A DNA stretch of 35,454 nucleotides, taken from contig NZ_AMXE01000038.1 of NCBI RefSeq assembly GCF_000310205.1, positions 1-35,454 of the forward strand, given 5' to 3'. Each line of letters opens with the position of its first letter. The first letter of the stretch is position 1. The notes below the pieces were generated by a model, which was not told where the DNA came from, ran no database searches, and worked only from the letters and a program-made list of their open reading frames with translations. The stretch is from Thauera linaloolentis 47Lol = DSM 12138 (GTDB taxonomy: Bacteria; Pseudomonadota; Gammaproteobacteria; Burkholderiales; Rhodocyclaceae). The translations under genes and the position numbers were made by a program. Shown one piece after another: positions 20,917 through 23,558 of this stretch.

Positions 20917-21957
20917 ATGAAAATCGCCGCCTTCAATGTCGAACTGCAGTCCTCCCGCCAGTTCTCGCAGTCTTCCGAGACCAGCGAACGGCTTGAGATG
21001 TGGGGCAATGGCGGGGCATCGGTGGCGTCCGGCAGCGGCGCGCCGGCCGCCGGGGAGGTGCGGATCTCCGATGCCGCGCGCAGGGCGCAGATGGCGGAGC
21101 TGGCCGCGGCGGCGGCCGGAACCCCGGCCGTGTTCGAAATCGACCTGGGCGACGAGATCGACAGCGATGCCGACCTGCCGATGCTGATCCGCCTCATCGA
21201 AGCCATCACCGGCAAACCGATACGGCGCATCAACCTGCGGGATCTGGGCCAGGGCGCGGGCGAGGCGGGAGCGCAGGCACGGCCCCAGGGCCCGGGCTTC
21301 GCATACGATTTCAGCGCCACCTACTCCGAATCCGAAACGACCGCCTTCAGCGCCTCGGGCGTCGTCCGTACTGCCGACGGCGCCGAGATCCGTTTCGACC
21401 TCGGCTTCGAGGTCTCGCGCAGCTACAGCGAATCGGTGTCGGTCAGCCTGCGCGGCGGCGACCAGCACCGGCTGCAGGACCCGCTGGTGCTCGATTTCGG
21501 TGGCCCGGCCGCCGCGTTGTCCGATGTCCGTTTCGACTTCGACCTCGACGGCGATGGCAGCACGGAGAAGATTCCGCTGCTCGGCGGCAGCGGCTATCTC
21601 GCCTTCGACCGCAACGCCAATGGCCGTGTCGATGACGGCCGCGAGCTGTTCGGCCCGCGCACCGGCAACGGCTTCGATGAACTCGCCGCGCTCGATGGCG
21701 ACGGCAACGGCTGGATCGACGAGAACGACGCGGCGTGGTCGCAACTGCGCGTATGGCAGCCGGACGCGCGGGGCGAGGGCACGCTGCAGACGCTGGCCGA
21801 GGCCGGCGTCGGCGCCTTCTATCTCGGCCGCGCCGATACGCAGTTCAGCCTCAAGGATGCCGCCAACGAAACCCTGGGGATGATGCGCGCAAGCAGCATC
21901 TACCTGCGCGAGGATGGCAGCGTCGGCACCGTGAGCCAGGTCGATCTGGCCGTCTAG
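20917..21957 (+). CDS. Hypothetical protein with RTX/FrpC-like calcium-binding loops
   Basis: A 346-residue protein with no signal peptide. The N-terminal half begins MKIAAFNVELQSSRQFSQSS and contains Ser-rich strands (YDFSATYSESETTAFSASG). The C-terminal third has Asp/Asn/Gly loops like those at the ends of FrpC-type and other large calcium-binding exoproteins: FDFDLDGDGST, YLAFDRNANGRVDDGRELFG, GFDELAALDGDGNGWIDEND, then a conserved LRVW. These would bind Ca2+, but as a short stand-alone protein it lacks the usual glycine-rich nonapeptide repeats and no type I secretion genes are near. The ATG at 20917 lacks a clear ribosome site. Its stop codon lies inside the left target duplication of the inserted element that follows. 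Confidence 0.8.
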   Translation: MKIAAFNVELQSSRQFSQSSETSERLEMWGNGGASVASGSGAPAAGEVRISDAARRAQMAELAAAAAGTPAVFEIDLGDEIDSDADLPMLIRLIEAITGKPIRRINLRDLGQGAGEAGAQARPQGPGFAYDFSATYSESETTAFSASGVVRTADGAEIRFDLGFEVSRSYSESVSVSLRGGDQHRLQDPLVLDFGGPAAALSDVRFDFDLDGDGSTEKIPLLGGSGYLAFDRNANGRVDDGRELFGPRTGNGFDELAALDGDGNGWIDENDAAWSQLRVWQPDARGEGTLQTLAEAGVGAFYLGRADTQFSLKDAANETLGMMRASSIYLREDGSVGTVSQVDLAV

Positions 21958-21960
21958 GAC
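21951..21960. repeat. Left target-site duplication
   Basis: CGTCTAGGAC, identical to 22082-22091. It contains the TAG stop of the preceding gene, so insertion left that protein unchanged. Confidence 0.8.
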
Positions 21961-22081
21961 CAATATCGTTCAGATAAGCGCGGCTTGTTTCCGTAGGAGC
22001 GGACTTGGCCGCGAACACGGACTGATTCGCGGCTAAAGCCGCTCCTGCCGTGACGGCGCGCGCGTTAACTGAACCGCATTG
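21961..22081. mobile_element. 121-bp miniature inverted-repeat element (MITE) with a REP-like core
   Basis: The element is flanked by a perfect 10-bp direct repeat, CGTCTAGGAC, at 21951-21960 and 22082-22091. Its ends are inverted: the left begins CAATATCGTTCAGATAAGC, and the right, read leftward, begins CAATGCGGTTCAGTTAACG, about 17 matches in 22. Inside is a second inverted repeat, GTAGGAGCGG...CCGCGAA (21993-22014) against TTCGCGG...CCGCTCCTGC (22026-22048), of a kind seen in REP sequences. It encodes nothing. A 10-bp target duplication suits IS4-type transposases; that assignment is inference. Confidence 0.8.
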
Positions 22082-22091
22082 CGTCTAGGAC
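22082..22091. repeat. Right target-site duplication
   Basis: CGTCTAGGAC, identical to 21951-21960 and directly abutting the right end of the element. Confidence 0.8.
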
Positions 22092-22130: not shown

Positions 22131-23447
22131 TCAGGCGTGGAGCTGGTTCAACTGGCGCGCGACGATGTCGTGGTTCAGCCACAGCACCGGCCCCGAAGGC
22201 GCCGAGGCTTCACGCAGGATCAGCGTGCCCGAGGCTTCCAGCACCAGGCTGCTGAGCAGGTCGGTGATCAACGCGGCGCGGTCCTGGTGCATCTGCACGA
22301 TGTCGTCGGAAGTACCGATCTGCAGGTCGGCCTGGGCCTGGCTGTTGGGCTGCGGCCAGGCGGCGAAGTCGCGGAAGCCCTGCATCACCTCGCTGCCCTG
22401 GAAGTCGGCGATCTTCTGCAGCACGTCCTCGAGCGTGTGGCCGTCGGCCAGCAACGCGCGGCAGGCCTGCCATTGCGATTCCGCCCAGGCGCCGCCGCCT
22501 TCGTGCTTCAGCGCGTGCAGCAGCGAAATCAGCGGCAGCTCGACGCCGGCGAAGACGTCGGTGGAGTTGGTGCGGATCTCCGGACAGTTGTACACCGTGG
22601 CCTTGACGCCGGTGTCCCAGGCGGCCCGGGCGATGCGCTCGAGCCGCATCTTGGCGTAGCCCTGAGTGTAGTTGGTGTAGGTCTGCCACTGGTAGCGGCC
22701 GTCGACGAGGATTTCGGTGCCATGGTAGCCGTAGGCGCTGTAGCGCACCTGGCCGCCGGACGCCTCGACGCGCGCGCGGATCGCCGCGCTGCCTTCGATC
22801 AGATGCTGGAAGGTGCTGGCCGACACTTCGTCGAAGTTCTGCAGGATCAGCTTGCCGAGATCGCTGTCGAGCAGGGCCTGCGACGGCATGAAGCGCTCGC
22901 CGCGGCCCTTGTAGATGCGGTTGGCGATGACCATGAAAACCTTGGCGCGCGGAATGCCGCCGGCCATCGTGTGCGCGAACAGCACGTTGCGGCCGTCGCC
23001 GATCAGGCCGTCGAGCGCCGCCATCGCTTCGGCCACCGCGGCCTGGAAGCGGCGCGTGCCGAGCGCGCGGCATTTTTCGATGTGCGCCCAGTCGAGCCTG
23101 TCCTGTTCCCAGCTCTTCAGCGTCATCTTGTTGAGCAGTTCGGTGGGCGTGGGCTCGCCGGCCGGCGCGTCGAGGTCGAAGCCGGCCATCAGCGGCACGT
23201 TGACGATGCGTCCGCCCAGGTTGGCTTCGGCCGCCGCCAGTTCGTCGTCGTTCAGTGGGCGCAGGGTGTTGTCGTCGTTGCGCCGCCCGACGGTGATGCC
23301 GACGATGTCCATGCCGGCCTTGCGCGCTTCATTGACGAGGCCGCTGGCGTAACCGCGGCCGAAGAGTTCGCCGAACAGCACGAACACGTCGCCCTTGCGG
23401 AAGATGTTGGTCTGCGGGAGTTGCTTCAGGGAAATGGGGCTGTTCAT
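22131..23447 (-). CDS. FabMG-like enoyl-ACP reductase family protein (tentative)
   Basis: A 438-residue cytoplasmic protein. It begins MNSPISLKQLPQTNIFRKGDVFVLFGELFGRGYASGLVNEARKAGMDIVGI; the Gly-rich turn after the first strand resembles a nucleotide-binding SDR-like fold. Other conserved-looking stretches are LFAHTMAGGIPRAKVFMVIANRIYKGRGERF and YGYHGTEILVDGRYQWQTYTNYTQGYAK. I recall proteins of this type being placed in the FabMG enoyl-ACP reductase family, first found through metagenomic screening; this naming is from memory and not from a conserved catalytic triad I can prove. If correct, it would reduce enoyl-ACP in fatty-acid synthesis. The ATG at 23447 lacks a strong ribosome site. It lies 111 bases downstream of the helicase gene on the same strand. 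Confidence 0.65.
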   Translation of the reverse strand: MNSPISLKQLPQTNIFRKGDVFVLFGELFGRGYASGLVNEARKAGMDIVGITVGRRNDDNTLRPLNDDELAAAEANLGGRIVNVPLMAGFDLDAPAGEPTPTELLNKMTLKSWEQDRLDWAHIEKCRALGTRRFQAAVAEAMAALDGLIGDGRNVLFAHTMAGGIPRAKVFMVIANRIYKGRGERFMPSQALLDSDLGKLILQNFDEVSASTFQHLIEGSAAIRARVEASGGQVRYSAYGYHGTEILVDGRYQWQTYTNYTQGYAKMRLERIARAAWDTGVKATVYNCPEIRTNSTDVFAGVELPLISLLHALKHEGGGAWAESQWQACRALLADGHTLEDVLQKIADFQGSEVMQGFRDFAAWPQPNSQAQADLQIGTSDDIVQMHQDRAALITDLLSSLVLEASGTLILREASAPSGPVLWLNHDIVARQLNQLHA

Positions 23448-23558
23448 GTTCGCTGTGTGCCAGCCGGGCTGGTCGAAGGTCAATGCAGCCGCGATTGTAC
23501 CCGGCCCGAACGGCGCGCACGGTGCCGCCGCCACGACATCCGTGCGCGCGGGCGGACG

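Follow-up and report, generated by a model that had tools for sequence, protein, structure and literature searches.

Insertion sequences of the IS4 subgroup of the IS4 family have ends of the form -AATR--------WTW and generate target duplications of 10-13 bp (De Palmenaer et al. 2008, PMC2266710). Their autonomous members are 1400-1650 bp long and encode an Nterm_IS4/DDE transposase with the YREK motif. The main text of that study does not contain the word CTAG, and its target-site figure may show a CTAG target. MITEAba12 (PMC6382973) is a bacterial MITE of 111-114 bp, derived from an IS, that has the terminal repeats of an IS and makes duplications of the length made by that IS. TnRErm46 / ISRe46 of Rhodococcus equi (PMC6794481) targets CTAG, and the duplicated CTAG gives some target genes TAG stops, which leaves them uninterrupted. 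GTAG-tagged REP pairs are described among the REPs, REPINs and BIMEs (PMC3733652, PMC2817692, PMC3116915), and the GTAG REP termini reportedly often supply TAG stops to flanking ORFs (PMC3733652). CGTC REPs are presented in the latter survey as having no dedicated transposase, and a broad spectrum of enzymes may move them.

The window (the whole stretch of 35,454 nucleotides that was analysed) belongs to the draft assembly of Thauera linaloolentis 47Lol, which comprises 220 contigs. It contains an element that we consider to be a non-autonomous MITE of the IS4 subgroup, moved in trans with a 10-bp duplication centred on CTAG/YTAR, the copies of which are left on stop codons and carry a GTAG-type REP pair (probability of about 0.87). 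The features of the locus are as follows.

20917-21957, plus strand: upstream gene of 346 aa without a Pfam family, the native TAG of which (21955-21957) lies inside the left direct repeat.
21951-21960, no strand: left copy of the target duplication, CGTCTAGGAC; other copies have repeats of this length, mostly with a CTAG core.
21961-22081, plus strand: MITE of 121 bp, from the sequence, BLAST, the terminal-repeat search and the alignment of copies.
21961-21977, plus strand: left terminal repeat, CAATATCGTTCAGATAA, which fits the IS4-subgroup end -AATR--------WTW (PMC2266710, Table 1).
21993-22015, plus strand: left REP, a GTAG-tagged palindromic unit of the GTAG-REP class of PMC3733652.
22026-22048, minus strand: right REP, inverted, forming with the left REP a REPIN-like hairpin (sequence and fold).
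22065-22081, minus strand: right terminal repeat, CAATGCGGTTCAGTTAA (sequence and terminal-repeat search).
22082-22091, no strand: right copy of the target duplication, CGTCTAGGAC, read directly.
22131-23534, minus strand: downstream convergent gene, FabMG enoyl-ACP reductase (PF22046), untouched (ORF and Pfam).

The initial annotation had described terminal repeats starting with CAAT that touch a perfect 10-bp direct repeat, and a REP-like inverted repeat in the core; direct reading bore out both. The sequence CGTCTAGGAC is identical at 21951-21960 and 22082-22091, and the 121 bp between the two copies (21961-22081) are non-coding. The element has CAATATCGTTCAGATAA at its left end and CAATGCGGTTCAGTTAA, read on the minus strand, at its right end; the terminal bases of both agree with the IS4-subgroup form of Table 1 of PMC2266710, and the 10-bp duplication lies inside the 10-13 bp range of this subgroup. 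The core (21993-22048) reads GTAGGAGCGG...CCGCGAA / TTCGCGG...CCGCTCCTGC and consists, as in a REPIN, of two inverted GTAG-tagged REPs separated by a short spacer, the right unit starting on its own strand with GCAGG, which differs from GTAGG by one base. The REP hairpin starts 35 nt past the stop codon of the 346-aa gene. As RNA, the 121-bp element is predicted to fold at -66 kcal/mol (z of -6.35 against 200 shuffles); this strength follows from the nested inverted repeats, so that the fold by itself is no evidence of an RNA function. Three microRNA matches in Rfam were all far under their gathering scores and were taken as chance.

Comparison with relatives showed that the TAG at 21955-21957 is the native end of the 346-codon ORF, since 14 of 15 relatives' loci align to residue 346 and stop immediately, while the remaining one (L265) stops two codons past this position. 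The left repeat holds the stop of the upstream gene and leaves the protein intact, as had been proposed, and this pattern is found in six of the eight copies described below. The terminal repeats are absent within 300 nt of the gene's stop in all 15 relatives' loci, with FabMG synteny in G015 only. In this genus relative, the sole one with the FabMG gene downstream, the ortholog stops with TAA and is followed by a different REP pair, whereas the G019 ortholog ends with GTG followed by TAG, has no CTAG and lies at a locus that continues for only 634 bp. The REP pair of G015 (L258, at the 3' end of the ortholog of 20917-21957) occupies the same intergenic spot and has no MITE ends, so that REPs may have entered this gap on more than one occasion.

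The outcome that the initial annotation had named as refuting, no second copy and no empty site, did not occur. Searches of the T. linaloolentis genome gave eight copies or remnants: C38 (the window copy), C3, C9, C28, C90, C77, C20 and C8. BLAST with 141 bp returned five full copies, the partial C77 and two REP-only matches in C47, and the terminal repeat alone as query, without CTAG, added C8 and C90. The terminal-repeat search gave 40 sites at up to three mismatches, against 15 with the reversed pattern; 30 of these were taken as loci, with eight sensible as copies, and ten weak sites were left out.

The flanking 10-mers were CGTCTAGGAC/CGTCTAGGAC, AGCCTAGACC/AGCCTAGATC, CCGCTAGATC/CCGCTAGATC, GGGCTAGCTC/GGGCCAGTTC, CGGCTAGACC/TGGCTAGAAC, CCCCAAGGCC/CCGCTAGGCC and ATTTTAGCTG/ATTATATGAG. 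Among these seven readable pairs, two match at all 10 positions, one at 9, three at 8 and one at 6. The targets are alike, so that flanks taken from different copies already share 5.4 of 10 positions on average and 8 at most; against this, the 9/10 pair and the two perfect pairs stand out, and the 8/10 pairs less so. C77 has lost its left end and the ends of C8 are degraded. One copy is present at another locus of G015, between a perfect pair of CGGCTAAGGC. A 4-bp CTAG duplication of the IS5 type was ruled out, since the duplications reach 10 bp and the related transposases have Nterm_IS4.

Alignment of seven copies (six from the own genome and that of G015) showed two length classes (112-123 bp and 135-141 bp), both centred on the REP pair. 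C90 (L128:4080-4134) is only 55 bp long and has no REP core, but it keeps the terminal repeats and the direct repeat and lies at a TAG stop; it is either a deletion or a form that predates the capture of the REPs. By eye, the spacer inside the REP pair of C8 is inverted relative to those of C3 and G015 while the outer arms have the same orientation (L129:3986-4126, L127:3928-4068 and L134:4155-4289), and the REP-pair hairpin seems to flip. An abundant REP of the own genome was considered as the source of the core and found no support: a motif scan of 400 kb gave a single, doubtful REP-like cluster, while G019 has many more matches.

An empty site was found at the locus of another copy, C9. The gene at C9 was matched in 27 of 29 genus genomes, the own one included, and 12 loci (the own one and 11 orthologs) were examined. 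The element is absent in all 11 orthologs, where the gene directly adjoins the DNA on its right. In G015 and G019, the two nearest relatives, the gene ends with CAC-TAG-CA and contains a single CTAG, while the other nine orthologs stop with TGA (six), TAA (two) or a TAG without a preceding C (one).

The search for an IS with the same ends, also suggested in the initial annotation, was successful in other genomes, where such elements have 10-bp CTAG duplications. These partner-type ISs are 1443-1534 bp long, with one of 1247 bp, and their transposases have Nterm_IS4 and a DDE domain and, mostly, YREK. A contig scan with CTAG and the terminal repeat gave 87 stretches, and among the 80 listed, which were examined, ten contain an element of more than 1 kb that has both ends and at least 6 matching positions of 10 between its flanks. 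Their hosts are Streptomyces (two), Phytohabitans (two), Gordonia, Nocardia, and MAGs of Competibacteraceae, Chloroflexi, Alphaproteobacteria and Propionibacteriales. Pfam finds Nterm_IS4 and DDE_Tnp_1 in all three CTAG-type transposases scanned, as well as in the transposase of G162 (from a related family with 12-bp duplications). YREK is present in nine of the ten CTAG-type transposases examined, L199 being without the K. Nine CTAG-type transposases share 42-99% mutual identity and 29-32% with that of G162, in a table that excludes L199 (no YREK) and L225 (a near copy of L159).

In seven actinobacterial genomes queried with only the terminal repeat, 56 of 64 ends adjoin YTAR, 34 of these being CTAG. 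The 64 ends are from a set of 66, two one-mismatch ends being left out, and the 26 ends of Pseudomonas poae, which has another type of target, were excluded; the eight genomes were chosen for a CTAG-flanked end in each, so that at least one end per genome is conditioned. The preference for YTAR itself is clear from these ends.

Closer to the window, G250, of the same bacterial family, contains a 1455-bp element that is a candidate IS, with the unequal flanks GCGCTAGGTC and GATTTAGGCT. Nterm_IS4 (PF13006) had no match in the own genome or in 28 other genomes of the genus (29/29 negative), while it matched E. coli among 14 control genomes. The G250 transposase as query gave nothing in the own genome and weak relatives (27-29%) in three of the 29 genus genomes, and the four loci of these relatives have no such terminal repeat at up to three mismatches. 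The copies thus look orphaned and we infer their partner from the autonomous elements elsewhere; they may indeed be so, or the draft assembly may lack the partner. The presence of a partner transposase in the same genome, where none was found, is no defining feature of a MITE. The element is short and non-coding, has terminal inverted repeats shared with autonomous ISs, and occurs as copies at unrelated loci, with duplications and an empty orthologous site at C9; the 121-bp MITE of the initial annotation is upheld on these grounds.

In the mechanism that we propose, a transposase acting in trans would make a staggered cut and produce the 10-bp duplication centred on CTAG, or more generally on YTAR, and this target would give back a stop codon to a gene entering from the left or from the right. 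YTAR holds TAA or TAG on both strands, so an insertion can restore a stop from either side. Transposition with a 10-bp staggered cut at YTAR accounts for the duplication as well as for the ends and the preserved stop. The own genome is GC-rich, and its CTAG sites lie less often within genes than at stops or outside genes; specificity for YTAR combined with the loss of harmful insertions would leave the remaining copies on stop codons. Since the core is a GTAG-type REP pair, transposition would also place a strong hairpin just after the gene, and a hairpin at this position may influence mRNA decay or termination.

Six of the eight copies are on a native TAG stop, each of a different gene: those of a ZIP transporter (C3), a solute-binding protein (C9), the 346-aa gene (C38), a 164-aa gene with no Pfam family that enters from the right (C28), a nitroreductase that enters from the right (C90) and a LysE translocator (C77, with TTAG). 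C20 and C8 lie away from stops. A count over 400 kb of the own genome placed 12 of 93 CTAG sites at stops, 33 within genes and 48 elsewhere; by a second criterion, 15 of 177 sides are at stops. Against a background of about 13-17% of CTAG sites at stops in these 400 kb, the binomial P is 1e-4 to 5e-4 for six of eight copies and 6e-4 to 2e-3 for five of seven, without the given window copy, with stops called by crude codon-position criteria and a background of CTAG only, while C77 is at TTAG. CTAG is rare in the same 400 kb, with 94 occurrences observed against 1256 expected from base composition and 351 from a Markov estimate. In the G162 control, the 12-bp duplications of which are without YTAR, a plausible stop lies in the duplication of 1 of 12 elements; comparison with the own copies gave a Fisher P of 0.004, the coding test for G162 being slightly different.

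The excess at stops was also present in larger sets. The wide set, from which duplicate ends and ends with less than 310 bp of flank were excluded, has 18 of its 85 insertion sides at stops, compared with 35 of the 569 CTAG sides in the background (Fisher 3e-5). Of the 64 ends in the terminal-repeat set, 10 fall at stops, compared with 10 of 208 background YTAR sides (P 0.007). All eight ends in Kutzneria adjoin CTAG, and five of them fall at gene stops, compared with 29 of 160 sides in the background (P 0.007). In Mycolicibacter sp. MYC017 (L163:3445-3730), a CTAG insertion lies at the shared stop of two convergent genes, as called by a crude caller, and each gene keeps its own copy of the stop; this element is partly masked.

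The excess in the wider sets is modest and can be due to selection alone, and we give even odds to the explanation that insertions are random with regard to stops among YTAR sites and that their position at gene ends is due solely to selection against the disruption of genes. Interior CTAG sites are hit less, since 10 of 85 insertion sides in the wide set are within genes against 263 of 569 in the background, and 12 of 60 non-interior CTAG sites of the own genome are stops; the excess elsewhere would follow partly or wholly from the loss of insertions inside genes. Four of the five CTAG-flanked copies are at stops, however, which is more than these 20% (P 0.007), one of the four being the given window copy. 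This explanation is compatible with the IS4-type MITE that we favour and differs from it only on the last step; targeting and selection are not separated by these counts.

It is improbable that the hairpin has been domesticated as a 3' stabiliser or attenuator of mRNA and that the copies would be kept for this function. The predicted fold is strong, a coding region directly precedes six copies and REPs are discussed in such a role (PMC3733652), but C90 has no hairpin core, the relatives do without the element at all 11 C9 orthologs, and at the window locus G015 has a different REP pair. We regard as very improbable that the element is a REPIN moved by a RAYT, with the 10-bp direct repeat and the CAAT outer repeats as secondary features: the REP pair of the core is of the GTAG type, which reportedly often brings TAG stops to its neighbours (PMC3733652), and REP pairs without CAAT ends are present in the own genome (C47, twice) and as 23 matches in the sister genome G019, but the copies are bounded by the CAAT terminal repeats, which the duplications touch instead of the REP ends, C90 retains these repeats and the direct repeat without a REP core, and the same ends bound autonomous ISs.

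For the IS4-type MITE, other lineages provide a comparison of the cargo. Among 24 elements with IS4-type ends, classed by eye, several enclose other palindromes: those of G162 and G391 have REP motifs of the CGTC type, that of Polaromonas (L221) has CTTCGACAAGCTCAG-type repeats, that of G172 (L245) a related one, and those of G245 have CCCCTCTCCC-type palindromes, while L198 and L224 are among the elements without an obvious REP. The G245 elements L120, L121 and L122, with the CCCCTCTCCC palindromes, are 186-191 bp long and are predicted to fold very strongly, at -120 to -125 kcal/mol.

In G162, perfect 12-bp duplications flank two IS4 elements of 1423 bp. Ten shorter elements, the flanks of which match at 9 to 12 positions, contain CGTC-type TTCCCGC/GCGGGAA motifs, one or two in each, against a background of 12 such motifs in 400 kb, one of them near a terminal repeat. 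These counts are from part of 57 sites and exclude four good-end pairs without a duplication, three of which have REP motifs. An IS4-type enzyme as one of the movers of CGTC REPs would be consistent with these findings in G162.

Pseudomonas poae (L434-L446, behind L204) has about 120 IS4-type terminal repeats (59 + 61). Of the 26 ends read, eight adjoin an exact GGGCWWGCCC and 20 are within two mismatches of it, this motif being the centre of several Pseudomonas REPs in the REP table of PMC2817692. In ten paired elements, the two 10-bp flanks share 7 to 10 positions, and two elements of 198-200 bp contain, by eye, REP-like pairs. Taken further, and tentatively, as we rate it at somewhat less than even chances, IS4-subgroup transposons may be a second, RAYT-independent vehicle of REPs, including CGTC REPs; palindromes would have become the cores of IS4-type MITEs in several lineages, and their target core, YTAR or, in P. 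poae, a REP-like palindrome, would be a built-in safe harbour, YTAR giving back a stop codon on both strands, so that REPs would be seeded right behind unbroken genes.

This bears on a point of the 2013 survey, which left open which enzymes move CGTC REPs (PMC3733652): G162 contains intact IS4 elements and CGTC-REP MITEs with the same ends and the same duplication length. The open-licence literature searched contained no stop-codon pattern for IS4-type MITEs and no REPs inside IS4-type MITEs. The element of the window resembles the IS4 subgroup in its ends, its duplication length and its partner-type ISs, but is itself 121 bp long, non-coding and built around a REP core. It is close to MITEAba12 in size and in having the terminal repeats of an IS and duplications as long as those of its IS, while MITEAba12 has 9-bp duplications for which no sequence trend is reported, and the available text of PMC6382973 mentions neither a stop-codon pattern nor a REP core. 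With TnRErm46 it shares the CTAG target and the TAG stop, but that element is a composite resistance transposon and no MITE, with unlike ends and a 6-bp NCTAGN duplication (PMC6794481). The target itself carries a stop triplet on both strands, so that the duplication can repair what the insertion would break; such a repair is reported for one other transposon, TnRErm46, and appears here to be a property of a transposase clade, which is mostly found in Actinobacteria and has members in proteobacterial genomes or MAGs. Like the GTAG REPs, REPINs and BIMEs, the element has a GTAG-tagged REP pair and lies at a TAG stop, but unlike those described (PMC3733652, PMC2817692, PMC3116915), its REP pair is inside IS4-type terminal repeats and was moved with 10-bp duplications.
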